The notes: generated from the sequence alone by a model not told the origin. DNA of 64,000 nucleotides from Candidatus Limimonas egerieequi (GCA_018064455.1 JAGHVH010000010.1:62001-126000), one strand, 5' to 3'; shown: positions 15,903 through 33,063, counted from the first letter of the stretch. A program made the numbers and translations.

Positions 15903-17617
15903 TGGGTAAACAGTTAGAGTCTAGATTTTTTAAAGACGTAACAAACAAGCCACTACAGGAATATCCAAGACCACAACTTAAAAGAGATAGTTATATGAAT
16001 TTGAACGGCCTTTGGCAGTACGCCATAAGGCCTATAGATGTCGAATTCGATGGCAAGTATGATGGAGACATCCTTGTACCGTTTTCGCCTGAAGCAATGC
16101 TTTCAGGCGTCAATAGAACGGTTACGCCGGATGATCTCCTTTACTATAATCTCGAATTCGAAGTAGAGGATAGTTTTATCAGCGACAAAACTATCCTTCA
16201 TTTTACGGCCGTGGACTATGCTTGTAATGTCATCCTAAATGGTCAAGGAGTAGGCTCCCATACGGGAGGCTTCTATCCATTTGACCTTGACATTACCGCT
16301 GCCGTACGGCCGGGCACCAACGTCCTCCAGGTTGAGGTCGCAGACCCATCAAACCAAGGCGTTGGCGCAAAGGGCAAACAAAATGAGAGTCCAAATACAA
16401 TCTGGTATACACCACAGTCAGGTATTTGGGGCACAGTATGGATGGAGTCAGTATCAGATGACTACATCAGTGATCTCAAAATTACGACAGATATCGACAA
16501 CGATACAGTAACAATTATTCCAACTACAACTGCCAAGGATTTCACCATTGAAATCTATGACAGTGGAAAACAGATAATTAAAACAAAAGAAACAACAATA
16601 AAACTCACAGACTATGAACTCTGGTCACCAGAGAATCCAAAGCTCTATGACGTAATTATCAAAACTAAAAATGACAAAGTAGAGTCATACTTTGGAATGC
16701 GTAAGTTTGGCATTGGTACGGATGAGAACAATATTAAAAGACTGTTCCTCAATAACAAGCCATACTTCCACAATGGTGTTTTGGATCAGGGATATTGGTC
16801 AGATGGTATGCTCACACCACCAACTGATGAAGCATTGCTCTATGATATCAAGATGCTCAAAGATATGGGCTTTAACATGATTAGAAAGCACATCAAGATT
16901 GAGCCACTTCGTTGGTACTATTACTGTGACAAGATTGGAATGCTCGTATGGCAGGATATGGTCAATGGTGGTAACGGCAGTTATAACCCATTCTGCATTG
17001 CTATAATTCCATTCTTTAACATCAACGTAAATGACACTAAGCACTACAAGTTCTTCGGCCGTGAAAGCTTAGACGGTAGGGCAGAGTATGAGCGTGATCT
17101 TGAACGCACAATAAACCTTCTTAAGAATCAAACATCCATTGCAATGTGGGTCCCATTCAATGAGGGATGGGGACAGTTCGATTCCAAGAGGATTACAAAT
17201 AAAATCAAAGAGATGGACCCAACAAGAACGGTAGATTCATCATCTGGTTGGCACGACAACGGAAATGACTTTGTTTCAAAGCACATCTATTTCTACCCAA
17301 TCTATGTACCACGTGATGAGCGTTGCTATCTTCTTTCTGAGTTCGGTGGCTATTCCAAGCCAACACCTGGTCACATGTATACCAAAGCACTCTTTGGCTA
17401 TCACATGTACCCAACCAAAGGAATGCTTCAAAGAGCATACAAAAAGCTCTTTGAAAAGCGCATAATTGCTAACATCCCAAAGGGACTGTCAGCAACTGTT
17501 TACACTCAAGTCTCCGACATTGAGGGCGAGATTAACGGTCTCATTACATACGACCGCAAGGTCGAGAAATTCGACCGCGCTTTCCTCAAAGAAATAAATA
17601 GTCGTGTCCATTTTTGA
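15902..17617 (+). CDS. glycoside hydrolase family 2 protein
   Basis: YMNLNGLWQYAI; LKDMGFNMIRKHIKIEPLRWYYYCDKIGMLVWQDM; WVPFNEGWGQ. Confidence 0.85.
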   Translation: MGKQLESRFFKDVTNKPLQEYPRPQLKRDSYMNLNGLWQYAIRPIDVEFDGKYDGDILVPFSPEAMLSGVNRTVTPDDLLYYNLEFEVEDSFISDKTILHFTAVDYACNVILNGQGVGSHTGGFYPFDLDITAAVRPGTNVLQVEVADPSNQGVGAKGKQNESPNTIWYTPQSGIWGTVWMESVSDDYISDLKITTDIDNDTVTIIPTTTAKDFTIEIYDSGKQIIKTKETTIKLTDYELWSPENPKLYDVIIKTKNDKVESYFGMRKFGIGTDENNIKRLFLNNKPYFHNGVLDQGYWSDGMLTPPTDEALLYDIKMLKDMGFNMIRKHIKIEPLRWYYYCDKIGMLVWQDMVNGGNGSYNPFCIAIIPFFNINVNDTKHYKFFGRESLDGRAEYERDLERTINLLKNQTSIAMWVPFNEGWGQFDSKRITNKIKEMDPTRTVDSSSGWHDNGNDFVSKHIYFYPIYVPRDERCYLLSEFGGYSKPTPGHMYTKALFGYHMYPTKGMLQRAYKKLFEKRIIANIPKGLSATVYTQVSDIEGEINGLITYDRKVEKFDRAFLKEINSRVHF

Positions 17618-17660
17618 CACTCATTCGTATAAAAGAATAAAACCTTTAAGGAGGAACAAT

Positions 17661-18302
17661 ATGAAAAAGTTAGTTTCTATTCTTATCGCAATGATTATCA
17701 TTGCAACAATCGCAATTATCCCAGCGTCCGCAAAATTAGCTGATGGTATCGTAGACGAGAACGGTAAAGCCATCATTACTCTTGATAATACTAAAATCAA
17801 GTTTGTTGCTGGTGGCAACAAGGATCTCGAAGGCTGCAAAGTTGTAATTGAAACTATTTACAGAGATGAAAACCCGGCAGCATATGATAAAATTCAAAAT
17901 ACACTTGATGAACACATCGGAAAAGCTTTGTATTTCATTAAAATTGGCGTTTATACAGAAGATGGTCGTGAATTACAACTTAAAGAACCATTCTCAATTG
18001 AAATCCCACTCGAAGAAGACGTTGATTATGTAAGTTCAGAAGCTGACGTTGTAATTCCATGTGAAAAATTCACAAATGAAGAAGACGTTCAATGTGTACG
18101 ACTTGGCCTTAGAGACACTGCACCAATCGCAGTTGTAAGTAATGTAGAGCCAATGGAAAAGCCAGATGTTGCTGGCACAGCAATTAACAAGGCACCAACT
18201 AATACATGGCTCTATGTTGCAATTGCAGAGCTTGTTGTAATTATCGCTCTTGTAGTAGCATTTGTCGTTAAGACACGTAAACCAGAAACCAAGGCAGAAT
18301 AA
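17661..18302 (+). CDS. secreted, C-terminally membrane-anchored protein
   Basis: signal peptide MKKLVSILIAMIIIATIAIIPASA; C-terminal TM + KTRKPETK; GGAGG RBS. Confidence 0.7.
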   Translation: MKKLVSILIAMIIIATIAIIPASAKLADGIVDENGKAIITLDNTKIKFVAGGNKDLEGCKVVIETIYRDENPAAYDKIQNTLDEHIGKALYFIKIGVYTEDGRELQLKEPFSIEIPLEEDVDYVSSEADVVIPCEKFTNEEDVQCVRLGLRDTAPIAVVSNVEPMEKPDVAGTAINKAPTNTWLYVAIAELVVIIALVVAFVVKTRKPETKAE

Positions 18303-18319: not shown

Positions 18320-19438
18320 ATGAAAAGAATCCTATGCGTACTCATCGCCATCCTAATGATGCTGTCACTTACAGTTCCAGCATTTGCAGCAGATGAAGTT
18401 AAAGCAATTTCTACTAGTGAAGATTTAGTTAAATTGTTGATATTAGGTGGTAAAGGTAAAATAGAAAATGATATACGTATATCAACCAGAGAAATTCTTG
18501 AATTAATTAAGAGAACAGAGGAAGAAATTAATCCAAAAGCTGAAATCGACTTAAATGGAAATACTCTAATAATTGAAGCATTGGAAGAACCTTTAACTCT
18601 TGAAAATGTCGTATGGAGTTTTAAGAATGGTACTTTGGAAACTCGAGAAGATTTTTATCATAAAAATAACGTTAAATTTAGTGATGCCATATTAACACTT
18701 GATAAAGTACAATCACCATCTTTAAATATCTTTTCAGATGATTCCAATATAACCTTGTTTTTGACAAATGGATCATTTGTTACTGCTACCAGTAATAAAC
18801 CATTTAGTTTTTGTTACCATACTTCTCTTTGCTATCTTGCTAGAAATGATAAAAGTAAAGATATGCTTATTGATTTAGATGGTGGAATAATTAATCTTGC
18901 AAGTTTTATAAATGTAACTTTTAAAGATGGTTATGTAGATCTCGACTCAGTTATTCCACAAAAAAGTAAGACAAAGTTTTTGGGTTGGAATGACTGTAGA
19001 GCAGAATGGACTACAGAATTTACAATTACATTTGATCCAGGCCAAGGCACTTGTGATACTCAAACGCTTAAAACGCTTGATAATAGCAAACTAGAGCGAC
19101 TCCCAATTGCTTCAAAGGATGGATATTGCTTTGTTGGTTGGTTTGAAGAAGGTAGTAACCAAAAAGTGACTGTAGATACTGTTTTTGAAAAGGATACTAC
19201 ACTTCATGCAAAACTTATTGCAAAGGAAGAACAGATTAAAAATATTGAAAAGCCAATGAAAGACCTTGGCTTTAACGAGGTAGATGTTCAAAAGGTAATT
19301 TCATTGTTCTCTTCCAACAAGGTTGCAGGTTCCGCTATCGTATCTGAACCTGTTTGGGGTGTTGTAATAGCAGCACTTGTTGTTGGTGCATTTGCTGGCG
19401 GAACAGCGTTTGGTAGTAAAAGAAATAAGAAAGATTAA
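18320..19438 (+). CDS. secreted surface protein with InlB B-repeat-like module
   Basis: signal peptide; FTITFDPGQGTCDTQ..GYCFVGWFEEG..TLHAKL; C-terminal TM with GSKRNKKD. Confidence 0.7.
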   Translation: MKRILCVLIAILMMLSLTVPAFAADEVKAISTSEDLVKLLILGGKGKIENDIRISTREILELIKRTEEEINPKAEIDLNGNTLIIEALEEPLTLENVVWSFKNGTLETREDFYHKNNVKFSDAILTLDKVQSPSLNIFSDDSNITLFLTNGSFVTATSNKPFSFCYHTSLCYLARNDKSKDMLIDLDGGIINLASFINVTFKDGYVDLDSVIPQKSKTKFLGWNDCRAEWTTEFTITFDPGQGTCDTQTLKTLDNSKLERLPIASKDGYCFVGWFEEGSNQKVTVDTVFEKDTTLHAKLIAKEEQIKNIEKPMKDLGFNEVDVQKVISLFSSNKVAGSAIVSEPVWGVVIAALVVGAFAGGTAFGSKRNKKD

Positions 19439-20597: not shown

Positions 20598-20675
20598 CTA
20601 CCAACTAAATATTCATTAGCCTTTTTACTTCCTTCATCGTATAAATAAGTGAGATCCTTAAAAGGAGGGATTACG

Positions 20676-20915
20676 ATGAAGGAAGCTATTATTATTTTAG
20701 CAGTACTTTTGATTATTGAAATTTTGACACTTGTAGCTGTCATTTGTCCAGCAAGCCCAGCAGCTGACGCAATGCTTGCTTCATCTAATGCAGTTGCCGG
20801 CTCTATGCTGACGCACCAGAGCCTATCAGCAATAATTCTCATACTACTCGTAATTACTTTCATTGTTGAGACCGTAATTATCATAAAGGTAGTTAAGAAC
20901 GAAAGAAAAAAGTAA
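20676..20915 (+). CDS. small two-TM protein
   Basis: 79-aa ORF, GGAGG RBS, two hydrophobic segments. Confidence 0.6.
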   Translation: MKEAIIILAVLLIIEILTLVAVICPASPAADAMLASSNAVAGSMLTHQSLSAIILILLVITFIVETVIIIKVVKNERKK

Positions 20916-20936: not shown

Positions 20937-21704
20937 ATGAAAAAAATAATTGCTACAATTTTTGCGTTAGCGACTATTCTTGCACTAACAATTATCCCGG
21001 CATCAGCTACTTATAGTCAATATAACGTTCCATTGAATCCAGATTCAAACGGTAGAATGTGGGTAGACGTAACTAACAGTTCTGGTAACCATATCCTTTA
21101 TGTAATGATTGAAATGGATCCTAACGATATTCCAGAAGGCGCCGAATATGACGTTACTTATACAGATAGAAGCAACAACTTTATTTCTGGTCCAGTTTTG
21201 GATTCTTTAGGTGAAATGTTGGGTCTTTATATTAATGATTCGGTTCAATTCGAAGTTACGGATTCATCAAATAAAACTCTTATAAAAGATGCTACTTTCT
21301 ATGTTGAGGCAGCTGATAGGAAAAATGCTTATGCGATAAATACAGTTGCATTTACACAAATGCCAGATGAAGAACGCCAAGCGTCAACTTATGCTAATGT
21401 TACAACGAAAATTAGTAAGGTTAAACTTAAAGGTCCTGATAAAAAGGACAGACAGTATTATAAAGTAAGTCAAGATAATGCATGCTTCACAGTAATATCA
21501 TCTCCGGACAATGTGGAATTTCCAGTTTCACCTGGTAATACAAATTTTTCAGGGACAGAATTTAATAATAATGCTAAAGGCAGTTATGGTGGCGCAATAG
21601 TTGGCTCTACATTTATGAACTTACCAGTGTGGTTTGCAGCATCAACAGTTCTTGCACTTGCAGTAGTTTTCTATGTAAGTTATAAGAAGAAAAAGAAGAA
21701 ATAA
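20937..21704 (+). CDS. secreted anchored protein (paralog of 19875-20597)
   Basis: MKKIIATIFALATILALTIIPASA; STFMNLPVWF + TM + KKKKKK. Confidence 0.7.
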   Translation: MKKIIATIFALATILALTIIPASATYSQYNVPLNPDSNGRMWVDVTNSSGNHILYVMIEMDPNDIPEGAEYDVTYTDRSNNFISGPVLDSLGEMLGLYINDSVQFEVTDSSNKTLIKDATFYVEAADRKNAYAINTVAFTQMPDEERQASTYANVTTKISKVKLKGPDKKDRQYYKVSQDNACFTVISSPDNVEFPVSPGNTNFSGTEFNNNAKGSYGGAIVGSTFMNLPVWFAASTVLALAVVFYVSYKKKKKK

Positions 21705-22231: not shown

Positions 22232-22253
22232 AAGCCAGGCAGAAGCCTGGCTT
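22232..22253. terminator. CCAGGC-type terminator 2
   Basis: AAGCCAGGCAGAAGCCTGGCTT. Confidence 0.8.
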
Positions 22254-22258
22254 TGTTT

Positions 22259-22529
22259 GTATCTGGCGGTCAATCCGCGCTCACACAGTAAAAGGTACCG
22301 CTGCGTAATTGGTAGCGCAGTCTGTTCGCATGTCAAGGCACGCAAGCTCTAAAGGCCTTGACAAAGCTCACAGCCAGCGCTACGGGCTAGATATCACCAG
22401 CAAAGGTAAACTTTGCTGGGCGCAAGTAACAACTATGTGTGGAGGCGAGTGGGATGGCCGCTCGTCAGTAATTTCTAACCGTTCGTAGGAAATGCGTCCG
22501 TTTTTGCTCTGTTTTGGGATATATAAGTA
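22259..22529 (+). repeat. long array repeat, copy A
   Basis: ~270 bp, nearly identical to 26257-26525 and 27697-27965. Confidence 0.95.
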
Positions 22530-22580
22530 TAAAGATTTATTGACGCGCCCTATATAATAGGGTATACTGTAGGTGAAATA

Positions 22581-22673
22581 ATGTATAGATTGTTTGTAAT
22601 GACAAAAGAATTTGATACTAAAGAAGAACGAGCTGCAATTAAGGAAGTAGTAAAATTGTTGAAGAATAATTGA
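22581..22673 (+). pseudogene. RelE/HigB-like toxin C-terminal remnant (30 aa)
   Basis: MYRLFVMTKEFDTKEERAAIKEVVKLLKNN resembles C-terminus of HigB/RelE partners of XRE antitoxins; TTGACG-N17-TATACT promoter precedes. Confidence 0.5.
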
Positions 22674-22682
22674 GGTGATCAT

Positions 22683-23000
22683 ATGTCAGATTTATATAAG
22701 AGTTTATTGCAAGGCTTAAATGAAGCTGTTGAACATGAAAAAGGCACATTGACACTTAAAACTGCAGCAGTTGAAATAAATCCTGTAGAGGAGTTTACGG
22801 CTAAAGAAGTTAAAACTATCAGAAACAACCTCAATATGTCTCAGTCTGTTTTTGCGGTTCTCATGGGCGTGTCTAATAAAACGGTAGAGGCATGGGAAGC
22901 TGGAACAAATAAACCTACTGGTTCTGCCAGAAGATTGCTTGGAATGTTGAAAGAGGATAGTAATATACCTCAAAAATACAATATTGTTGTTTTAAAGTAA
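22683..23000 (+). CDS. XRE-family HTH antitoxin/regulator (HigA/NadS-like)
   Basis: IRNNLNMSQSVFAVLMGVSNKTVEAWEAGTNKPTGSARRLL. Confidence 0.85.
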   Translation: MSDLYKSLLQGLNEAVEHEKGTLTLKTAAVEINPVEEFTAKEVKTIRNNLNMSQSVFAVLMGVSNKTVEAWEAGTNKPTGSARRLLGMLKEDSNIPQKYNIVVLK

Positions 23001-23043
23001 GAACAACTGATTATAAATGTTTTGTTTGGAGACATAGATAAAT

Positions 23044-23808
23044 TTGAAAAGAATGAATAATAATAAATTAAAAATAGTAAATGGAGATGTAATTAAATAT
23101 ATTGCAATCATTCCAATGTTGTTAGGACACACAATCAGTTCTTTAGTTGAGCATGATATTCTTGAATCCAATACATTTTTGATTGTGCTTCAGGCATTAG
23201 CAATTTTTGCAGCTCCTATCTTCTTTTTTTCGATAACGGAAGGGTACAAATATACACGTTCAAAAAAGAAATACGCATTGCGATTGTTGATATTCGCAAT
23301 TATCACGCAGATTCCTTTTGCACTCAATTCTTTTGGAACATTGTTTACTGTAGAAGCAATACTAAATTTGAATGTCTTCTTTACTTTGCTTGCTGGTTTA
23401 ATTTCAATTATAGTGTGGGAAAGCAAATATCCAGCTGTAGCACGTATTATAGGAATTATTATTATAGATGGATTGACTGTATTATTTGGTAGCGAATGGA
23501 TGATATTTGGTGTACCGATAATCCTGGGACTGCATATATTTAGTGAGAAACCGAGAGTACGTTTTATTTGGTTTGCGATGTGTATTCTTTTGTCTCAGTA
23601 TATCTGTTGGGGAATGAATTTATATACATTTATTAGTCCAGGTTTCATTTCAGGAACAATAGCAGCAATCATAAGTTATTTGTTCATAACTACATTTTAC
23701 AATGGGCAAAGAGGAAAGCATCCTGTATTTTCAAAATGGTTCTTCTATATTGTTTATCCGTTGCATTTTGTGCTGATATATTTGATTATAATAATGATTA
23801 CGGCGTAG
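23044..23808 (+). CDS. TraX-like membrane protein
   Basis: DVIKYIAIIPMLLGHTIS..YPLHFVLIYLI; multi-TM. Confidence 0.7.
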   Translation: MKRMNNNKLKIVNGDVIKYIAIIPMLLGHTISSLVEHDILESNTFLIVLQALAIFAAPIFFFSITEGYKYTRSKKKYALRLLIFAIITQIPFALNSFGTLFTVEAILNLNVFFTLLAGLISIIVWESKYPAVARIIGIIIIDGLTVLFGSEWMIFGVPIILGLHIFSEKPRVRFIWFAMCILLSQYICWGMNLYTFISPGFISGTIAAIISYLFITTFYNGQRGKHPVFSKWFFYIVYPLHFVLIYLIIIMITA

Positions 23809-23890
23809 ATTTTGTAATGCAACAGTCCGTTTCTTTTATCCAAAGCAAAATCATTGTATAATCAAGTCATCAAAACGTGCGGAGGATAAA

Positions 23891-24502
23891 ATGGAGATAA
23901 AAGATATACTTAAAACCCTAAGAGAAAAGAATAACCTTACACAGGAACAACTAGCTGACAAAGTAATGGTCACAAGACAGGCTGTAAGCCGCTGGGAGAA
24001 CGGTGAAACACAACCTAATACAGAAACCTTAAAACTACTTTCAAAGCTATTTGACGTGTCCATAAACACACTCCTGGGCGATGACCAATTAATATGTAAA
24101 TGTTGTGGCACACCGCTTGATGAAATATCTCTAAATAATGATTACTGCGAAGACTGTTATGACTATTTTACTAAGTATCAACAGTTTTCAGATGAAGGTC
24201 AATTTGAGGCATTTGTAAAACAGTTAATTAATGAAATCAATGATTTAAAGATTGATGGCATGCCAACCGTAACTGGCCTTAATCCATTACCAGGTAAATT
24301 TGTGAACCTATCATACAGGCTTCCAAGTGGTGAGTATGTCAAGTTCCTTGATGACAATGCAACCTACCTAGGTAACCAACTTGAATCCCTTTTTGATCCA
24401 AACGTTTGCTTTGGCGTTCTTGCAAGCCTTGGTTTCATTATGGTTTGCAGCTACGGTGAACAAGGCTCAAATCCAGAACTCATTATCTACAAGCAAAGAT
24501 AA
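23891..24502 (+). CDS. XRE-family regulator with zinc-ribbon-like and C-terminal domain
   Basis: LREKNNLTQEQLADKVMVTRQAVSRWENGETQPN; CKCCG..CEDC. Confidence 0.8.
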   Translation: MEIKDILKTLREKNNLTQEQLADKVMVTRQAVSRWENGETQPNTETLKLLSKLFDVSINTLLGDDQLICKCCGTPLDEISLNNDYCEDCYDYFTKYQQFSDEGQFEAFVKQLINEINDLKIDGMPTVTGLNPLPGKFVNLSYRLPSGEYVKFLDDNATYLGNQLESLFDPNVCFGVLASLGFIMVCSYGEQGSNPELIIYKQR

Positions 24503-24508
24503 TTATTA

Positions 24509-24539
24509 AAAGCCAGGCTACAATACAAAGCCTGGCTTT
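24509..24539. terminator. CCAGGC-type terminator 3
   Basis: AAAGCCAGGCTACAATACAAAGCCTGGCTTT. Confidence 0.8.
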
Positions 24540-24543
24540 CGTT

Positions 24544-24960
24544 CTATACAACCATTATTAATGTTCCAACACCAATTAGAATACAACCTATCAGAGACTT
24601 CGCAGTGAATTCCTCATGAAGGAATACAAAAGCAAGTATGAGTGTTATTACTACTGAAAGCTTGTCTATTGGTACAACCTTGGATGCATCACCCATTTGA
24701 AGTGCTTTATAGTAACAAAGCCATGATGCGCCAGTAGCAAGACCAGAAAGTATTAAAAATAGCCAGCTCTTTTTACTGATATCTGTCATTCCACTCTGTG
24801 CATTGGTAATGAACACCATTCCCCATGCCATAGCAACGACTACAACAGTCCTAATTGCCGTTGCCAGATTGGAATCAACTCCTTCTATACCTACTTTTGC
24901 AAGTATCGATGTAAGCGCTGCGAACACTGCTGAAAGCAATGCAAATATAAACCACGTCAT
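24544..24960 (-). CDS. EamA/EmrE-like small transporter
   Basis: 138 aa, ~5 TM, FALLSAVFAALTSILAKVGIEGVDSNLATAIRT. Confidence 0.8.
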   Translation of the reverse strand: MTWFIFALLSAVFAALTSILAKVGIEGVDSNLATAIRTVVVVAMAWGMVFITNAQSGMTDISKKSWLFLILSGLATGASWLCYYKALQMGDASKVVPIDKLSVVITLILAFVFLHEEFTAKSLIGCILIGVGTLIMVV

Positions 24961-25033
24961 AATGCACTCCTAAGATATACTTTAATTTATAATCATTATA
25001 CTTTAAACTTAACATTGATGCATTAAAAACTTT

Positions 25034-25074
25034 GTAGCCATTTTTTAAAATGCTTCGTATAAAGAGATGTAAGA
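25034..25074 (+). promoter_or_regulatory. GG-peptide promoter 1
   Basis: TAGCCA-N17-TATAAA then AGATGTAAGA. Confidence 0.75.
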
Positions 25075-25097
25075 CAAATCAAAAGGAGGAAAAAACA

Positions 25098-25259
25098 ATG
25101 TCAGAACTTAGAGATGAACTTTTACAGGAAACAACAGGTGGTTGCCCAGAAGAGCGTACAGTATTAGGTGGTATGCCAAAGATTAATCCAGATGAGAAAT
25201 ATGTATTAACACATAATATGCCTCAAAAGTCAGATGATGAAAAATACGTAATGAAGTAA
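25098..25259 (+). CDS. double-glycine leader peptide (53 aa)
   Basis: MSELRDELLQETTGG|CPEERTVLGGMPK...; AGGAGG RBS. Confidence 0.7.
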   Translation: MSELRDELLQETTGGCPEERTVLGGMPKINPDEKYVLTHNMPQKSDDEKYVMK

Positions 25260-25275
25260 TCTTCTTTTAGCAGAC

Positions 25276-25299
25276 AAAGCCAGGCGGTTGCCTGGCTTT
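25276..25299. terminator. CCAGGC-type terminator 4
   Basis: AAAGCCAGGCGGTTGCCTGGCTTT. Confidence 0.85.
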
Positions 25300-25358
25300 T
25301 GTTATCCTTATTGACTTATACGTATTAAAGGCGCATAATGAGTGTGGATGGTGATCAA

Positions 25359-25751
25359 ATGAAACAAACTTACCCAATAGTGATTAAGAAAACTTCTAGT
25401 GGATATGTTGTCTATATTCCAGACTTTGATATCAATACTGAGGGTGCTGATATTACAGAAGCAATAGAAATGGCAAGGGATGCTATAGGAATTATGGGTA
25501 TCGATATGGAAGATGATAAAAAGAAACTTCCAGAACCAACAGCCTTTGATAGAATTAAACTTAAAAGCAATGAGTTCATCACTCTTGTTGATGTTGATTT
25601 CTATGAGTACAGACGTAAGAATGAAACTAAGGTAGTTAAGAAAAATTGTACTTTGCCAAGTTGGTTATGCTATGAAGCAGAGAAAGCTAATATTAATTTC
25701 TCTCAACTATTGCAAAATGCAATTAAAGAAGAACTTAAAATAGCAACATAG
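25359..25751 (+). CDS. HicB-like antitoxin, no adjacent HicA
   Basis: YPIVIKKTSSGYVVYIPDFDINTEGADITEAIEMARDAIG..LPSWLCYEAEKANINFSQLLQNAIKEEL. Confidence 0.75.
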   Translation: MKQTYPIVIKKTSSGYVVYIPDFDINTEGADITEAIEMARDAIGIMGIDMEDDKKKLPEPTAFDRIKLKSNEFITLVDVDFYEYRRKNETKVVKKNCTLPSWLCYEAEKANINFSQLLQNAIKEELKIAT

Positions 25752-25754
25752 TTT

Positions 25755-25779
25755 AAGAGCCAGGCTTCCGCCTGGCTTA
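25755..25779. terminator. CCAGGC-type terminator 5
   Basis: AGCCAGGCTTCCGCCTGGCT. Confidence 0.8.
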
Positions 25780-25786
25780 TTATTTT

Positions 25787-25860
25787 GACCGCTCGTCAGT
25801 AATTTCTAACCGTTCGTAGAAAATGCGTCCGTTTTTGCTCCGTTTTGGGATATATAAGTA
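25787..25860 (+). repeat. short array repeat, copy D
   Basis: GACCGCTCGTCAGTAATTTCTAACCGTTCGTAGAAAATGCGTCCGTTTTTGCTCCGTTTTGGGATATATAAGTA. Confidence 0.95.
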
Positions 25861-25905
25861 AAGGGCTTTTTTATCCCAACATAACATATTATTCTATTGA
25901 TGTTT

Positions 25906-25932
25906 GATAGCAAGTATGCTATCATATCGATA
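25906..25932. promoter_or_regulatory. putative operator of the XRE gene
   Basis: GATAGCA-N4-TGCTATC followed by TATCGATA. Confidence 0.5.
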
Positions 25933-25950
25933 GATAAAGGAGTGAAAAAA

Positions 25951-26226
25951 ATGATCAAGTGGAATGAATATATTAATGATGCTAAAGAAGATTGCCCATG
26001 GCTTAAAGAAGATATTGAACAAGCTGAAGTGTGGGCTGCACTAATAACTCAGATTATTAAGCGAAGAGAGGAACTGGGAATATCTCAGCGTGAACTTGCC
26101 CAAATATGTGAACTTCCTCAATCATCTATTGCTAGGATGGAAGCATTTACTAATATTCCAAAAGTAAGTACAGTTATGAAAGTCATTAAACCTTTAGGAT
26201 TAAAGTTGCAGTTAGTTAATACATAA
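25951..26226 (+). CDS. XRE-family HTH antitoxin-like protein, no toxin partner
   Basis: RREELGISQRELAQICELPQSSIARMEAFTNIPKVSTVMKVIKPLGLKL. Confidence 0.8.
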   Translation: MIKWNEYINDAKEDCPWLKEDIEQAEVWAALITQIIKRREELGISQRELAQICELPQSSIARMEAFTNIPKVSTVMKVIKPLGLKLQLVNT

Positions 26227-26231
26227 ATGTT

Positions 26232-26250
26232 AAGCCAGGCGGCCTGGCTT
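26232..26250. terminator. CCAGGC-type terminator 6
   Basis: AAGCCAGGCGGCCTGGCTT. Confidence 0.75.
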
Positions 26251-26256
26251 ATTTTT

Positions 26257-26525
26257 GTATCTGGCGGTCAATCCGTGCTCACACAGTAAAAGGAATCGCT
26301 GCGTAATTGGCAGCGCAGTCTGCTCGCATGTCAAGGCACGCAAGCTCTGAAGGCCTTGACAAAGCTCTCAGCCAGCGCTACGGGCTAGATATCACCAGCA
26401 AAGGTAAACTTTGCTTGGCGCAAGTAACAACTATGTGTGGAGGCGAGTGGGATGACCGCTCGTCAGTAATTTCTAACCGTTTGTAGGAAATGCGTCCGTT
26501 TTTGCTTAATTTTGGGATATATATA
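26257..26525 (+). repeat. long array repeat, copy B
   Basis: near-identical to copies A and C. Confidence 0.95.
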
Positions 26526-26610
26526 GGAAATGATTTTACTCTTGCTGAGTAAATGAATTGACAAAATGTTATATATAACATATTATTAACTTTAGAAAGA
26601 AGGGCTGAAT

Positions 26611-26901
26611 ATGTCAAAAACAATACCGTTTGAAGTTTTAGAGCAACAACTATTACAAAATGAGTCCTTTAAAAATGAATACTCAAACACTCAAGCTGAA
26701 TATGAAGCAATGCGTGAAGTTATGAAGGCAAGAATTGAATGTGATCTTACTCAGAAGGAATTGTCACAGTTGAGTGGTGTTACTCAAGCTGATATTAGTA
26801 GAATTGAAAATGGCAACTTTAATCCTACAATTAAAATGTTGCAACGTCTTGCAGCGGGAATGAATAGGCATATCGAGTTAAAGTTTGTGCCAAATACGTA
26901 A
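26611..26901 (+). CDS. XRE-family antitoxin (HigA-like), no toxin partner
   Basis: ARIECDLTQKELSQLSGVTQADISRIENGNFNPTIKMLQRLAAGM; upstream TTGACA and TGTTATATATAACA palindrome. Confidence 0.85.
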   Translation: MSKTIPFEVLEQQLLQNESFKNEYSNTQAEYEAMREVMKARIECDLTQKELSQLSGVTQADISRIENGNFNPTIKMLQRLAAGMNRHIELKFVPNT

Positions 26902-26902
26902 T

Positions 26903-26927
26903 AAAAGCCAGGCAGCGCCTGGCTTTT
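26903..26927. terminator. CCAGGC-type terminator 7
   Basis: AAAAGCCAGGCAGCGCCTGGCTTTT. Confidence 0.85.
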
Positions 26928-26933
26928 TATTTT

Positions 26934-27007
26934 GACCGCTCGTCAGTAATTTCTAACCGTTCGTAGGAAATGCGTCCGTTTTTGCTCCGTTTTGGGATAT
27001 ATAAGTA
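26934..27007 (+). repeat. short array repeat, copy E
   Basis: GACCGCTCGTCAGTAATTTCTAACCGTTCGTAGGAAATGCGTCCGTTTTTGCTCCGTTTTGGGATATATAAGTA. Confidence 0.95.
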
Positions 27008-27021
27008 GGAAATGTTATGAA

Positions 27022-27041
27022 TGCAACTAAATTTAGTTGCA
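27022..27041. promoter_or_regulatory. putative HicAB operator
   Basis: perfect 20-bp palindrome TGCAACTAAATTTAGTTGCA. Confidence 0.65.
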
Positions 27042-27076
27042 AATTTCCGAATATATGATATACTTAAGGAGAAAAA

Positions 27077-27328
27077 ATGAGTCAGAAAGTAAAATTAATA
27101 AGTAAGTTAAAAACAGTTCCTAAAGACTTTACTTATGATGATGCCAAAGCTCTTTTAGAATGGTTGGGTTATAAGGAATCTAATAAAGGAAAAACAAGTG
27201 GTTCTAGAGTGTCTTTCGTTAAAGATAATTCGTTGATAATCCTCCATAAGCCGCATCCACGAAAAGAGCTACTTGTTGTACAAGTTAAAGAGTTGATTAG
27301 AACATTAGAACAGGAGGGGCTCATATGA
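27077..27328 (+). CDS. hicA: HicA toxin
   Basis: KDFTYDDAKALLEWLGYKESNKGKTSGSRVSFVKDNSLIILHKPHPRKEL. Confidence 0.88.
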   Translation: MSQKVKLISKLKTVPKDFTYDDAKALLEWLGYKESNKGKTSGSRVSFVKDNSLIILHKPHPRKELLVVQVKELIRTLEQEGLI

Positions 27329-27657
27329 ATAACACTATGATATATAAGGGCTATATTGGCAGCGTTGAATTTTCAGAAGAAGATTGCCTTTTCTATGGCT
27401 CTTTGCAAGGAATTAAAAGCTTAGTAGATTATGATGGTGCAACAGCTAAAGAGTTAATTGAAGATTTTCATAATGCGGTTGATAATTATCTAGAAGTTTG
27501 CACGGCGGAAGGTATTGAGCCAGAGCGCCCATATAAGGGTAGTTTTAATATTAGAATTTCTCCTGATCTTCACAAGAAGGCTGCTATTTATGCAATTAAC
27601 CACAATGTTAGTTTAAACAGTGTTGTTGAACAAGCATTGCAAAAAGCATTAGTATAA
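27325..27657 (+). CDS. hicB: HicB antitoxin
   Basis: YKGYIGSVEFSEEDCLFYGSLQGI..FNIRISPDLHKKAAIYAINHNVSLNSVVEQAL; overlaps hicA. Confidence 0.88.
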   Translation: MNNTMIYKGYIGSVEFSEEDCLFYGSLQGIKSLVDYDGATAKELIEDFHNAVDNYLEVCTAEGIEPERPYKGSFNIRISPDLHKKAAIYAINHNVSLNSVVEQALQKALV

Positions 27658-27668
27658 TGTAGAACTTT

Positions 27669-27690
27669 AAGCCAGGCAGTTGCCTGGCTT
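27669..27690. terminator. CCAGGC-type terminator 8
   Basis: AAGCCAGGCAGTTGCCTGGCTT. Confidence 0.8.
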
Positions 27691-27696
27691 ATTTTT

Positions 27697-27965
27697 GTAT
27701 CTGGCGGTCAATCCGCGCTCACACAGCAAAAGGAATCGCTGCGTAATTGGTAGCGCAGTCTGCTCGCATGTCAAGGCACGCTATGCTCTGAAGGCCTTGA
27801 CATTGCTCTCAGCCAGCGCTACTGGCTAGACATCACCAGCAAAGGTGAACTTTGCTGGGCGCAAGTAACAACTATGTGAGAAGGTGAGTGGGATGACCGC
27901 TCGTCAGTAATTTCTAACCGTTCGTAGAAAATGCGTCCGTTTTTACCTGATTTTGGGATATATAA
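27697..27965 (+). repeat. long array repeat, copy C
   Basis: near-identical to copies A and B. Confidence 0.95.
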
Positions 27966-28007
27966 ATGAGGGATGTGCCTCAATATATCCTAATTGGAGG
28001 TGAAATT

Positions 28008-28307
28008 TTGGGCGAAATTCAATTTGAGTGGGATGAGGAAAAGGAACAATTAAATATTGAAAAGCATGGAATTGATTTTACGACCGCTGTGCTTGTGTTT
28101 AAAGATGCTATGTATCTAGAACTGTTTGATGAGGATCATAGTACTGAAGAAGAAAGATTTAATATTATTGGAATGGTTGAAGAAGTTCTTTTTGTAGTGT
28201 ATACTGAAAGAGCTAGTAAGATAAGGATCATTTCCGCTAGGTTGGCAAATAAAAATGAAAGGGAGATGTATTTTGATAGTTTCTTATACTTTAAAGGAAG
28301 GCACTGA
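28008..28307 (+). CDS. brnT: BrnT-family toxin
   Basis: FEWDEEKEQLNIEKHGIDFTTAVLVFKD..RIISARLANKNEREMY; TTG start with GGAGG RBS. Confidence 0.85.
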   Translation: MGEIQFEWDEEKEQLNIEKHGIDFTTAVLVFKDAMYLELFDEDHSTEEERFNIIGMVEEVLFVVYTERASKIRIISARLANKNEREMYFDSFLYFKGRH

Positions 28308-28458
28308 AATTACTGAAGAGCAAAAAGAAATGATACGAAAGGCTAAGCAAATGCCTATCGTATATGATGAAGATTCTCCTGAAATGGATGAAAAGATGAA
28401 GAAGGCTTTTAAGGAAGCAGTTAAAGAACGTAATAGAAGAATATCAAATATGGCATAA
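28273..28458 (+). CDS. BrnA-like antitoxin
   Basis: small acidic/basic ORF overlapping brnT: IVYDEDSPEMDEKMKKAFKEAVKERNR. Confidence 0.65.
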   Translation: MIVSYTLKEGTEITEEQKEMIRKAKQMPIVYDEDSPEMDEKMKKAFKEAVKERNRRISNMA

Positions 28459-28471
28459 ATGTAGTATGAAT

Positions 28472-28498
28472 GGCAGGCTGTAAAGCCTGCCTTTTTTT
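28472..28498. terminator. variant array terminator
   Basis: GGCAGGCTGTAAAGCCTGCCTTTTTTT. Confidence 0.8.
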
Positions 28499-28500
28499 GT

Positions 28501-28523
28501 TTGATTTTAGGATATATAAATAG
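28501..28523 (+). repeat. 3'-end fragment of the array repeat
   Basis: TTGATTTTAGGATATATAAATAG resembles repeat end TTGGGATATATAAGTA. Confidence 0.4.
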
Positions 28524-28583
28524 GGGATCCAAAAATAAGCATTGACAATATAGGTTTAAACCTATATAATCGGAGGCGAGAAA

Positions 28584-28751
28584 ATGAACTTCGAAGTAGA
28601 GTTCTTTGAAAAAAACGGTAAATGTCCTGTGGCTGAGTTTATCCTATGGTTTTACAAAAAGACGCAAAAGACACCCTCTAAGCAAATAGAATTAGCAAAA
28701 TCGTATATGAAAGAGTACTACAGTGAGGTGAAAAATAATGAAGTCGGATGA
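28584..28751 (+). pseudogene. Gp49/HigB-like toxin with apparent central deletion (55 aa left)
   Basis: MNFEVEFFEKNGKCPVAEFI (N-terminal signature) joined directly to LWFYKKTQKTPSKQIELAKSYMKEYY (C-terminal signature); GGAGG RBS; overlaps antitoxin gene. Confidence 0.7.
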
Positions 28752-29016
28752 ATTTTTTGAAAAACTTATGGAAGATCCTCAATATAGAGAAGAATATGAA
28801 AAAATGCAACCTGAAACGGAGCTTGTTAAAGCTTTACTTAAAGCAAGAAAGGATGCACGTTTAACTCAGGCTGAGTTATCAGAAAAATCTGGTGTTGCAC
28901 AAGCCGATATTAGCAAAATAGAAAGTGGTAAAGGTAATCCAACTCTCAAGATGATTATTCGTCTTGCTGAAGCGATGAATAGCCATGTTGAATTAAAAAT
29001 AATTCCAAATTCATAA
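28738..29016 (+). CDS. XRE-family antitoxin (HigA-like)
   Basis: ARKDARLTQAELSEKSGVAQADISKIESGKGNPTLKMIIRLAEAM. Confidence 0.87.
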   Translation: MKSDEFFEKLMEDPQYREEYEKMQPETELVKALLKARKDARLTQAELSEKSGVAQADISKIESGKGNPTLKMIIRLAEAMNSHVELKIIPNS

Positions 29017-29020
29017 TTGT

Positions 29021-29045
29021 AAGCCAGGCAACGCCTGGCTTTTTA
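29021..29045. terminator. CCAGGC-type terminator 9
   Basis: AAGCCAGGCAACGCCTGGCTTTTT. Confidence 0.85.
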
Positions 29046-29049
29046 TTTT

Positions 29050-29071
29050 GACCGTTCGTCAGTAATTCTAA
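29050..29071 (+). repeat. truncated array repeat, copy F
   Basis: GACCGTTCGTCAGTAATTCTAAC. Confidence 0.7.
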
Positions 29072-29101
29072 CTTTTATAAATTAAGTGCAGTAGTGTAAA
29101 T

Positions 29102-29209
29102 ATGGATATAAGAATTATTTGGTATTACGATTGTGATAAAATAATTTTGGCTGATATAGGTCATCATAAAATAATTGACTTGGGAATATTTAAAGCCTAT
29201 AATAGTTAG
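29102..29209 (+). pseudogene. RelE/ParE-like toxin C-terminal remnant (35 aa)
   Basis: MDIRIIWYYDCDKIILADIGHHKIIDLGIFKAYNS resembles the terminal beta-strands of RelE-fold toxins. Confidence 0.45.
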
Positions 29210-29240
29210 AAAGTAGGAATTTCTTACAAGAGGTGATATT

Positions 29241-29483
29241 ATGCTTGTAGAACTTAGATCAAAATCTCAAATTACAATACCAAAACAAATAGTTAATAAG
29301 CTTGATCTCCATGAAGGGGATCAATTTGAAGTAATTGAAAAGGATGGCATTATAAATTTAGTTCCTGTTACTGTGTATCCTAAGGATTATATTGAACAAT
29401 TGGAAGCTGAAGTTAAACAGTTAAAGAAGGATATTAGAAAAGGAAAAATTAGTACATCCTCATCAATTGATGAGATATTATGA
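29241..29483 (+). CDS. AbrB/SpoVT-type antitoxin
   Basis: VELRSKSQITIPKQIVNKLDLHEGDQFEVIEKDGIINLVPV. Confidence 0.85.
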   Translation: MLVELRSKSQITIPKQIVNKLDLHEGDQFEVIEKDGIINLVPVTVYPKDYIEQLEAEVKQLKKDIRKGKISTSSSIDEIL

Positions 29484-29485
29484 GT

Positions 29486-29510
29486 AAAAGCCAGGCGATT
29501 GTCTGGCTTA
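29486..29510. terminator. CCAGGC-type terminator 10
   Basis: AAAAGCCAGGCGATTGTCTGGCTTA. Confidence 0.75.
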
Positions 29511-29520
29511 AATTTTTTAT

Positions 29521-29560
29521 TAGCCATTTTCCAAACTCTTTCGTATAATGAGATGTAAGA
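29521..29560 (+). promoter_or_regulatory. GG-peptide promoter 2
   Basis: TAGCCA-N17-TATAAT then AGATGTAAGA. Confidence 0.78.
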
Positions 29561-29595
29561 TGATTCACAAGACAAAATTTTAGGAGGAAATAACA

Positions 29596-29757
29596 ATGGC
29601 AGAACTTAAAGATAAAGATTTACAGCAGGTAGACGGCGGTTTCGAATTTAATGTTCCTGATAGTAAAAAAGAGTATGAACCTCATTTTTATGATGATAAG
29701 CCACTTACACCAGAAGAACTCCTTGATGTTACAGCTGGTACAGATGACAAAAGATAA
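29596..29757 (+). CDS. double-glycine leader peptide (53 aa)
   Basis: MAELKDKDLQQVDGG|FEFNVPDSKKEYEPHFYDDKPLTPEELLDVTAGTDDKR; AGGAGG RBS; below the ORF-track size cutoff. Confidence 0.78.
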   Translation: MAELKDKDLQQVDGGFEFNVPDSKKEYEPHFYDDKPLTPEELLDVTAGTDDKR

Positions 29758-29774
29758 AACATCATTAACAAGTT

Positions 29775-29805
29775 AAGCCCAGTGCGTACTGCACTGGGCT
29801 TTTTC
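29775..29805. terminator. intrinsic terminator
   Basis: AAGCCCAGTGC..GCACTGGGCTTTTT. Confidence 0.85.
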
Positions 29806-29891
29806 ATTAGTCCATCTAATCGGACATTACCATATCTATAATCCGAATTAAAAGGGGATGCATAATCCTCAATTTATTAGGAGGACTAAAT

Positions 29892-30239
29892 ATGGGAATT
29901 AAAGCGCCATGGGAAAAAGATGGATATACTATGAGTGTAAATAATCTGGCTGATTTGGCGTGTGAAATTTTAAGTGATTTGCCAAACAACTATGAATTAT
30001 CTACAAGTGAACTAATTGAATTGTCTGATGATTTGCGCATGAATGAGTATGATATCAATGAATTACATACCCTTATTCTTGCAAAGGCAAAAGAAAATGA
30101 CCTTAAATTAGACTTTTCAAAATATGAAGGTATGATAGTTGGTTTGCCACATGATGTACCATACAAAGTTTTGAACAATAATCCTGATTGGGATGGTAAA
30201 CCAATAGGACGCACATATACAACCCACTATATTGAATGA
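29892..30239 (+). CDS. hypothetical protein
   Basis: 115-aa ORF with AGGAGG RBS. Confidence 0.6.
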   Translation: MGIKAPWEKDGYTMSVNNLADLACEILSDLPNNYELSTSELIELSDDLRMNEYDINELHTLILAKAKENDLKLDFSKYEGMIVGLPHDVPYKVLNNNPDWDGKPIGRTYTTHYIE

Positions 30240-30305
30240 GTATTGATGAAGTAAGTAAAATATAAAAAAATAAGGACTAGATGAACAATCTAGTCCTTAA
30301 CTCGT

Positions 30306-30488
30306 TTAATCATCAATTACCAATATTGGCTTTCCGTTTTTACCGTGTTCTAATATTGGTGATGGATAATTTGGAGTTCCTACTATTTTACTATCATTAT
30401 AACCGCATACACCACCAACGTTAGATTCTTCATTTGAACCGATACCACCGTTTACCTGTTCAAGTTCTTTTTCCTTTATCTCTGCCAT
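30306..30488 (-). CDS. double-glycine leader peptide (60 aa)
   Basis: MAEIKEKELEQVNGG|IGSNEESNVGGVCGYNDSKIVGTPNYPSPILEHGKNGKPILVIDD. Confidence 0.75.
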   Translation of the reverse strand: MAEIKEKELEQVNGGIGSNEESNVGGVCGYNDSKIVGTPNYPSPILEHGKNGKPILVIDD

Positions 30489-30508
30489 TTTTTTATCCTC
30501 CTTATCTT

Positions 30509-30548
30509 TCTTACATCTTATTATACGAAGAAGAAATGATAATGGCTA
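30509..30548 (-). promoter_or_regulatory. GG-peptide promoter 3
   Basis: minus strand TAGCCA-N17-TATAAT then AGATGTAAGA. Confidence 0.78.
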
Positions 30549-30614: not shown

Positions 30615-31103
30615 ATGACAACTTTTGATTTGATATTTAAATATACTTTGATTTTTTCACTAGCTGCACTGGTAGTTGGATTCATTGTCTATATCATCAA
30701 ACATCAGATAACAACAAAAATAGATTGTACTACTGTTCAAGTTACTGATGAAATGGATGGCCATGACTTTGAATACTGGTGTGCTGATTTATTGAAAAGA
30801 AGTGGATTTAGTGATGTAGTAGTAACCTCTGCAAGCGGTGATCAAGGTGGAGATATACTTGCTACATACAATGATTTGCTTTATGTATTTCAATGTAAGC
30901 GTGTATCCAAGAAGGTTGGTAATCATGCAGTGCAAGAAGTTGTATCGGCTAGGATTTATTATGAAGCAGATGTTGCTGTAGTAATAACGAATAATGCATT
31001 TACGCCTAGTGCGATAGAACTTGCTGAGTCGGCTGATGTTGACCTTTGGGATCAAGATGTGCTGGAGAATTTGCTGTATAAAGTTGTGAATCATGTTGTT
31101 TGA
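30615..31103 (+). CDS. membrane-anchored Mrr-like restriction endonuclease
   Basis: N-terminal TM; MDGHDFEYWCADLLKRSGFSDVVVTSASGDQGGDILATYNDLLYVFQCKR (D-x..-QxK). Confidence 0.85.
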   Translation: MTTFDLIFKYTLIFSLAALVVGFIVYIIKHQITTKIDCTTVQVTDEMDGHDFEYWCADLLKRSGFSDVVVTSASGDQGGDILATYNDLLYVFQCKRVSKKVGNHAVQEVVSARIYYEADVAVVITNNAFTPSAIELAESADVDLWDQDVLENLLYKVVNHVV

Positions 31104-31214
31104 TTGGATGTATTAAATGAGCCCGTCGCTTTACTACTGCGACGGGCTTTTCCTTTGGGTCATTTATCGGACACCACTGGTGATAAGATAATAGTGCGGT
31201 GGTAGAACTTTTGG

Positions 31215-31262
31215 TGACCATTCGTAAGATTATTCGTTGCCACTCGTAGTGGACGAACGGTC
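31215..31262 (+). repeat. divergent array-repeat-like sequence upstream of hsdM
   Basis: GACCATTCGTAAGATTATTCGTTGCCACTCGTAGTGGACGAACGGTC. Confidence 0.4.
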
Positions 31263-31317
31263 AAATTTATAGTACAATAGGTAACATATTATAGTATTTT
31301 TATTAGGAGATACGCAA

Positions 31318-33063
31318 ATGACGGATTTAGAATTGAAAGAATTAAAGGATAATTTATGGCATGCTGCAGATATGCTTCGTGCTGGAGCACACCTTGCTGC
31401 TAATAAATATGGTCAGCCAATTCTTGGACTGATTTTTCTTCGTTATGCGGATATTCTTTATAAACATCATAAAGGTGAAATTGATACCGAATATAATAAA
31501 CTAAAAGGCGGACGAATGGAAAAGTCGTATAAGGAAATTGCAATTGAAAAATGCGGTTTCTTTTTGCCTGAGTGTGCCTATTATGACTTTATTAACAATT
31601 CTCCTGATGATGCTAACAAGGCAACACTTGTTAAAAAGGCAATGGAAGCAATAGAGGATGAAAATCCAAAAATGGCGAATGTTTTACCAAAAGAGGTATA
31701 TGCTCAACTCGTTCCGGAAGAGGAACCAGAACTTCTTTCCAAAATTATTCGAGTATTTAAAGATATTCCTGAGGACTGCACTGTTGACATTTTTGGTGAG
31801 ATTTATGAATACTTCCTTGGAAATTTTGCTTTAAGTGAAGGCAAAGATGGCGGAACATTTTACACACCAGCAACCGTTGTTCAATATATGGTTGAAGTCT
31901 TAAATCCTCAGCCTGGTGATAAGAAGTTTTTAGATCCTGCCTGTGGTTCTGGCGGTATGTTTGTTCAAGCGGCTAGATATATGCATCGTCATAATGCAAA
32001 TGATGATGAGCGAATGAACTTTCGTTGTTATGGTGTGGAAAAAGAGCCTGATACAGTAAAACTAGCAAAAATGAATCTTCTTCTTAACAACGTGCGCGGA
32101 GAGATTACAGAGGCTAATTCTTTTTATTCTGACCCATATAATGCATTTGGTCAATTTGATTATGTTATGGCAAATCCACCGTTTAATGTTGATGAGGTTG
32201 TTGTCGACAAAGTGATTAGCGATGCACGTTTTAATACTTATGGTGTGCCAAGAAATGCAACCAAAACTACAAAAAAGGCATCCGATAAAAAAGAAACTGT
32301 ACCTAACGCAAATTATTTGTGGATTGGTTATTTTGCGACGGCTTTGAATGATAATGGTAAAGCTGCGTTAGTTATGGCAAATTCTGCATCAGATGCAGGA
32401 AAAAGTGAATATGAAATCCGTAAGAAGATGATTGAGGAAGGCATTATCTCTCAAATGGTGACATTACCATCAAATATGTTTACATCGGTTACACTTCCTG
32501 CAACGTTATGGTTTTTCGATAAAGCGAAGACAACTAGAGATAAAAAGGATGAAATTCTTTTTGTTGATGCGCGTAATGTTTATACAAAAATTCCGCATGA
32601 TCGTGCTCACCGGAAGTTTAGTGACGAGCAAATTAAAAATCTTGGCATCATTACACGCCTTTATAATGGCAATACGGATGCATTTTTTGCGTTGATTGAT
32701 GAATACCAAAAAGAATTATTAATTGCTCCTGAAACTAGTAGTGATGATAATGTTAAAACAAAAGCTTACTGGCAAGAGCAAATTGATTGGTTGTTGGAAC
32801 GTTTTCCTGATGGAAGATATCAAGATGTTGTTGGACTTTGTAAAGTCGCAAAACTTGATGGTGAGGATGGTATTGTGGATCAAGATTATTCACTAAATGT
32901 AGGACGTTACGTTGGTGTAATGGTTGAAGATGATGGTATGACCGAGGATGAGTTTAAGGAAACTATGGTTAATCTTGGAGAAGATTTTGAAATGCTAAAT
33001 GCCGAAGCAAAGTCACTTGTAGGACAGATTTCAGACAATTTGAAAAAACTGTTTGAGGTGTAA
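31318..33063 (+). CDS. hsdM: type I restriction-modification DNA methyltransferase
   Basis: FYTPATVVQYMVEVLNP; LDPACGSGGMFVQ; YVMANPPFNV (NPPF). Confidence 0.95.
   Translation: MTDLELKELKDNLWHAADMLRAGAHLAANKYGQPILGLIFLRYADILYKHHKGEIDTEYNKLKGGRMEKSYKEIAIEKCGFFLPECAYYDFINNSPDDANKATLVKKAMEAIEDENPKMANVLPKEVYAQLVPEEEPELLSKIIRVFKDIPEDCTVDIFGEIYEYFLGNFALSEGKDGGTFYTPATVVQYMVEVLNPQPGDKKFLDPACGSGGMFVQAARYMHRHNANDDERMNFRCYGVEKEPDTVKLAKMNLLLNNVRGEITEANSFYSDPYNAFGQFDYVMANPPFNVDEVVVDKVISDARFNTYGVPRNATKTTKKASDKKETVPNANYLWIGYFATALNDNGKAALVMANSASDAGKSEYEIRKKMIEEGIISQMVTLPSNMFTSVTLPATLWFFDKAKTTRDKKDEILFVDARNVYTKIPHDRAHRKFSDEQIKNLGIITRLYNGNTDAFFALIDEYQKELLIAPETSSDDNVKTKAYWQEQIDWLLERFPDGRYQDVVGLCKVAKLDGEDGIVDQDYSLNVGRYVGVMVEDDGMTEDEFKETMVNLGEDFEMLNAEAKSLVGQISDNLKKLFEV

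Follow-up and report, generated by a model that had tools for sequence, protein, structure and literature searches.

A promoter shared by scattered double-glycine leader peptide genes of Candidatus Limimonas egerieequi and its probable link to a sigma factor encoded with a peptide exporter

Three leader peptide genes and their common promoter

We analysed a stretch of 64,000 nucleotides (the window) from the gut-type Clostridia genome of Candidatus Limimonas egerieequi (GCA_018064455.1 JAGHVH010000010.1:62001-126000; contig C9), which contains three small genes for peptides with a double-glycine (GG) leader. An initial annotation made from the sequence alone had proposed that one conserved promoter co-regulates these genes and that their products, signals or bacteriocin-like effectors, leave the cell through a C39-peptidase ABC transporter encoded elsewhere. 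The genes and their promoters, which resemble those of extracytoplasmic function (ECF) sigma factors and were scored with a position weight matrix (PWM), are the following:

25034..25074, plus strand: ECF-type promoter of peptide 1, TAGCCAT-N14-TCGTATAA followed by AGATGTAAGA; PWM 57.8
25098..25259, plus strand: GG-leader peptide 1, 53 aa, core CPEERTVLGGMPK...
29521..29560, plus strand: ECF-type promoter of peptide 2; PWM 53.8
29596..29757, plus strand: GG-leader peptide 2, 53 aa, core FEFNVPDSKK...
30306..30488, minus strand: GG-leader peptide 3, 60 aa, core IGSNEESNVGG...
30509..30548, minus strand: ECF-type promoter of peptide 3; PWM 52.7

All three open reading frames (ORFs) are present where they had been annotated, each with an ATG start, a strong AGGAGG-type ribosome site and a stop codon. 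Counted back from the GG, their leaders have L or I at -12, L at -7 and V or T at -4. The promoter block described initially, TAGCCA-N17-TATAAT/A with TTCG before the -10 and AGATGTAAGA after it, is exact at all three genes. Its architecture appears to be better read as ECF-type, with a -35 of AGCCAT, 14 bases and a -10 of CGTATAA, so that TATAAT/A is the inside of CGTATAA.

When the 1.7 Mb genome was searched for the composite TTCGTATAAWNAGATGTAAGA with at most three mismatches, eight matches were obtained, of which three are in the window and the other five between 53 and 61 kb of contig C3; 8/8 lie upstream of GG-leader ORFs. The pattern AGCCAT-N14-CGTATAA has ten exact copies in the genome, compared to none for the reversed-pattern control and about 0.07 expected by composition. 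GG peptides follow eight of these ten sites, namely the three of the window, four on C3 and a single one on C30; the ninth lies upstream of a 64-aa gene at C3:76596 and the tenth upstream of the gene at C3:49518, whose 415-aa secreted product contains a Listeria-Bacteroides repeat. No exact copy belongs to a housekeeping gene; copies at many such genes had been named beforehand as something that would speak against the proposal. These scans support the co-regulation of the peptides.

GG peptides were collected throughout the genome by a leader profile combined with an ORF scan. This gave 14 of them on several contigs, a set far larger than the three first recognised. Nine of the 14 have the promoter, eight in its exact form and one (C3:61460) with a single mismatch in the -35 (ATCCAT). 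As to the remaining five, four stand directly behind another peptide gene having the promoter and one lies at a contig edge. Wherever the upstream DNA of a GG peptide is visible, the peptide has either its own promoter or a place just behind a promoter-bearing peptide unit. All 15 leaders listed end in GG, with L or I at -12 and L at -7 where they are long enough to score, and V is found at -4 in 12/15. The EERTVLG motif of the peptide 1 core occurs again in the peptide at C3:59988.

The AGATGTAAGA element was also considered as a regulatory site of its own and was rejected. With mismatches allowed, it occurs in the window 87 times against 87.35 expected, and it is missing at the promoters at C30, C3:49546 and C3:76536. 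Because it is at chance level alone and absent from these three promoters, we regarded it as belonging to the initially transcribed region.

The exporter operon and its sigma factor

The genome contains exactly one C39 peptidase gene (C3:71776-72168, E 3e-33). The C39-peptidase ABC transporter predicted to lie elsewhere, the lack of which would have counted against the proposal, is thus present in a single copy, and the noted absence of an exporter from the window is equally right. The gene is part of an NHLM-type operon on contig C3 (71.3-76.5 kb) with the order HlyD stub, ABC1 (which carries the C39 peptidase), ABC2 and sigma factor. Both transporter subunits score above their curated cut-offs (ABC1, TIGR03796, 900 bits against 853.3; ABC2, TIGR03797, 716.2 bits against 709.4), and ABC1 can be aligned over its whole length with solved chains of the bacteriocin transporter PCAT and of ComA. 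The HlyD-type protein, on the other hand, is a stub of 138 aa that covers only positions 1-52 of the 421 of profile TIGR03794 (31.6 versus 156.2 bits). The sigma gene is the last of the operon and its ATG overlaps the ABC2 stop. It encodes 158 aa with sigma2 and sigma4 domains only (PF04542, PF04545/PF08281) and scores 106 bits against TIGR02937 (cut-off 42.9). Judged by its domains and a size in the range expected (about 160-200 aa), it is an ECF sigma factor. Directly after the sigma gene, an exact promoter copy is followed by the 64-aa gene mentioned above.

The distribution of sigma factor and promoter was then surveyed in 148 relatives. A sigma factor of at least 59% identity was found only in the genome holding the window, in G009 (96%) and in G083 (61%), all other matches being remote. 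Exact sites number ten in the window's genome, eight in G009 and zero to two in the other genomes. In G010, which is of the same genus and 96% complete, the exporter is present but ABC2 is followed by another gene; neither a sigma factor of this kind nor any promoter site was found there, and its sole GG peptide is without the motif. G010 may be seen as a natural knock-out, suggesting that the promoter goes with the sigma factor and not with the exporter. In G083, which belongs to a second genus, two regulon promoters read RGCGAT-N14-CGTATAA, with the -10 unchanged and the -35 changed. The sigma factor of G083 is identical to that of the window's genome at 33/35 positions of region 2.2-2.4, but only at 28/55 positions of region 4 and at 14/31 of its helix-turn-helix end. 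The -35 and region 4 thus appear to co-vary in G083, while the -10 and region 2 stay constant.

A third lineage, Lachnospiraceae RUG13328 (G148; sigma identity 53%), probably has an equivalent regulon. The pattern TAGCC-N15-17-TCGTATA occurs there at six sites, compared to one in the control, and these precede three GG peptides, two secreted proteins and the sigma operon itself. In a scan of public genomes, NHLM genes were found beside the sigma gene, within the examined stretch, in seven of 80 sigma-like loci, all seven among the 15 closest; in three further genomes with a close sigma factor, ABC1 is located elsewhere in the genome. The stricter promoter pattern exceeds the control only in G148, and outside this sigma subgroup conservation of the promoter type does not rise above background. 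A loose pattern, GCCNT-N14/15-CGTATA, was tried in six distant genomes and discarded, since it was not above the reversed control. As a separate observation, four regulon transcripts of G148 (L239, L240 and L241) begin with differing strong 5' hairpins, such as GGGC..GCCC, with energies below those of shuffles. A 5' hairpin conserved in the initially transcribed region was considered and rejected, being clear in 4/5 G148 transcripts but not consistently seen in the window's genome.

Because the promoter is restricted to the regulon and both co-occurs and co-varies with the sigma factor, we consider it very probable that the peptide promoters are targets of one dedicated ECF sigma factor, the one encoded in the exporter operon. 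The three window genes would then be outlying members of a GG-leader peptide regulon. RNA polymerase carrying this sigma factor would transcribe the regulon genes, with region 2 recognising TCGTATAA and region 4 recognising TAGCCAT. The precursors, with leaders of 15-18 residues, would dock through L-12, L-7 and V-4 on the C39 domain of ABC1, be cut after the GG and have their cores exported by ABC1/ABC2. Since sigma factor and exporter are encoded together, one operon would set export capacity and cargo transcription alike.

Two other forms of control were weighed against this reading. The promoters could be housekeeping sigma-A promoters with an extended -10, the peptides being co-regulated by a classical regulator that binds AGATGTAAGA. 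Such a promoter would account for TATAAT/TATAAA inside the -10, and AGATGTAAGA is indeed common to most GG-peptide promoters of this genus. Nevertheless, the -35 and CGTATAA keep their fixed spacing at the three promoters without AGATGTAAGA (C3:49546, C3:76536 and C30), the sites disappear in sigma-less congeners that certainly possess sigma-A, and the -35 varies in step with sigma region 4, all of which makes sigma-A control very unlikely. The promoter might instead be read by another ECF-like sigma factor of the genome (on C35, C27 or C42), the exporter-linked one being a bystander. Five other genes with sigma70 region 2, one of them the primary sigma, are present. The distribution of the exporter-linked sigma factor, the only one tracked, matches the distribution of sites in relatives, and a promoter copy lies directly 3' of its gene in the window's genome, G009 and G083, leaving the bystander explanation highly improbable.

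Further observations weigh, like those five sigma genes, against a sigma factor dedicated to the exporter and its cargo. The exporter operon itself is without this promoter in the PWM scan, and 3/8 of the G009 sites precede neither a GG peptide nor a 64-aa gene. The congeners G003 and G005 have one or two sites, upstream of a leader peptide or surface protein, and no sigma factor was found in these incomplete assemblies (55% and 79%) despite the motif-bearing peptides. Finally, the motif is absent from G151 and G153 and not above control in G149, G150 and G152.

The exported peptides and the 64-aa protein

The 12 GG cores analysed have a net charge of 0 to -8 and are all hydrophilic. Two window peptides score 14.6 and 14.5 with the bacteriocin_sig model (cut-off 15.7) and 14.5 and 15.5 with TIGR03949 (cut-off 21.5), peptide 1 matches no bacteriocin model, and no NCBIfam NHLP or Nif11 leader model matched the window peptides. 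No immunity or modification gene was seen beside the peptides, immunity genes being looked for by eye only. Of the two roles suggested initially, the bacteriocin-like one is consequently not borne out.

Ordinary unmodified class II bacteriocins with a dedicated secretion system would fit the GG leaders, the weak leader-level matches to bacteriocin_sig and cerein models and the naming of the ABC1/ABC2 models as bacteriocin exporters. With scores under the curated cut-offs, neutral to acidic hydrophilic cores, no immunity gene seen by eye and a promoter that is common to surface proteins, we hold this to be possible but rather unlikely. The chances are about even that the peptides are self-signals or cell-surface or matrix peptides acting on the producer. 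Such a role is consistent with the acidic hydrophilic cores and with the co-regulated, repeat-containing secreted surface proteins. It also agrees with the G148 regulon, which includes secreted proteins and a GG peptide whose core looks SH3-like by eye, and with two GG peptides of locus L107 with a core that looks LysM-like by eye. On the other hand, a single quorum signal would not usually have cores as diverse as these, and no receptor was identified. Taken together, we infer that a producer-surface or signal role fits better than pore-forming bacteriocins.

The two L107 peptides are 75-aa ORFs (L107:10090-10703) immediately 3' of a sigma/NHLM locus; their GG leader has 14 residues (MTL..DLNNVSGG), and they may be small wall-binding cargo of a C39 exporter. 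The peptides at C3:55593 and, in G009, at L071:94 have an identical C-terminal core, GGPLNPAID-KDIPTDEETWLG, behind a different leader and N-terminal core, which suggests recombination among peptide genes.

Homologues of the 64-aa protein are encoded beside the sigma gene in the window's genome, G009, G083, L102 (two), L103, L105 (two), L106 and L107, in several loci just upstream of the sigma gene and overlapping or abutting it. No credible Pfam, NCBIfam or PDB match was found, and the protein probably represents an undescribed family. Its structure is predicted to be helical, but the prediction is weak (pLDDT 66, pTM 0.43). The N-terminal 30 residues are conserved and should be dispensable for export, because cargo leaders comprise only 15-18 residues. 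The last conserved segment, LSxxDLxLVxAA, mimics a leader, with L at -12, L or M at -7 and V or I at -4 in the cargo-leader register in 8/9 distinct homologues and AA where the cargo has GG. The C39 enzyme LahT docks leaders via exactly -4, -7 and -12, and the known cut motif is GG, GA or GS (PMC6363468). Since the register is kept and GG is replaced by AA, a sigma partner that is able to dock yet is poorly cleaved is conceivable. We tentatively suggest that the 64-aa protein could be an export-coupled regulator of the sigma factor, for instance an anti-sigma that is bound or removed by the exporter, releasing the sigma; that it is merely another cargo is about as likely. If the former is true, cargo genes would be on only with a working exporter, which would amount to a checkpoint of the FlgM kind in peptide export.

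Genomic surroundings and relation to known systems

Two weaker probable promoters were detected in the window. Their scores can be compared to a control with shuffled windows, in which 0.4 hits per 64 kb exceeded 9 and the highest score was 10.8.

17600..17642, plus strand: weaker probable promoter, TGTCCAT-N14-TCGTATAA; PWM 24.6
17661..18302, plus strand: 213-aa protein having a signal peptide and, at its C-terminus, a membrane segment; no Pfam match; probable regulon member
18320..19438, plus strand: 372-aa surface protein, secreted, containing a Listeria-Bacteroides repeat; possibly co-transcribed
20612..20654, plus strand: weaker probable promoter, TAGCCTT-N14-TCGTATAA; PWM 21.8
20676..20915, plus strand: 79-aa two-transmembrane protein, probable regulon member
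20937..21704, plus strand: 255-aa secreted or membrane protein directly 3' of the 79-aa gene

The 372-aa protein and the regulon gene at C3:49518 have a common domain. Beyond GG peptides, the regulon appears to take in a 64-aa gene and surface proteins as well.

At 22250-29070, small toxin-antitoxin cassettes (HicA/HicB, BrnT, several HTH_3 and MazE-type) form an array in which they are separated by 92 nt repeats (five copies), 283 nt repeats (three copies) and AAGCCAGGC..GCCTGGCTT terminators. GG peptides 1 and 2 lie among these cassettes, with terminators of this kind on their flanks. The array may be an integron-like or other cassette platform. A translated ORF on contig C3 (L011:4395-4580) contains the inter-cassette repeat of the window array, and the repeat is thus found on both peptide-bearing contigs. 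Next to peptide 3, at 30615-33063, is a defence-rich variable region with a protein that has an Mrr-type restriction endonuclease domain and a gene that by eye resembles those for type I modification (HsdM).

Clostridia of the gut and rumen commonly have NHLM exporters and GG-leader peptides, but scattered short precursors escape gene callers and cluster-based mining. When the exporter operon encodes a sigma factor, this factor and its promoter offer a direct handle for listing the exporter's cargo genes anywhere in a genome, and the conserved leader-mimic partner makes the coupling of export capacity to cargo transcription testable. In the open-access literature searched, we found nothing that combines an ECF sigma factor with NHLM, or nitrile hydratase leader peptides with a sigma factor, which is not proof of absence. 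The parts are ordinary (GG peptides, a C39/NHLM exporter and an ECF sigma factor); new with respect to the literature searched is their arrangement, in which a sigma factor of the exporter operon appears to define a dispersed cargo regulon.

The closest known system is NHLM/NHLP export (TIGR03794/03796/03797; PMC2887384), with which the present operon shares ABC1 with its C39 domain and ABC2, and for which Haft et al. (2010, PMC2887384) note that the exporter and its precursor genes can be far apart. Here, in contrast, the HlyD partner is reduced to the stub, the precursors have short leaders of 15-18 aa instead of NHLP or Nif11 leaders, and the operon ends in an ECF sigma gene; PMC2887384 nowhere uses the word sigma. 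The AMS/PCAT transporters with a C39 peptidase (LahT, ComA and PCAT1; PMC6363468) have the same recognition pattern of L-12, L-7, V-4 and GG. They differ from the two-subunit NHLM arrangement found here, with its dispersed cargo that is probably driven by the sigma factor of the exporter operon. If the 64-aa partner were an anti-sigma removed through the exporter, the logic would be that of the FlgM/FliA flagellar checkpoint, without homology to it; this comparison is hypothetical. The UviA/TcdR group likewise consists of clostridial alternative sigma factors dedicated to a secreted peptide or protein, with UviA driving bacteriocin BCN5 (PMC4031146). Its -35, TTTACA (PMC4031146), sets that group apart from the promoter described here, with its TAGCCAT, and the present sigma factor is encoded within the exporter operon itself, from where it would serve many scattered peptide genes.

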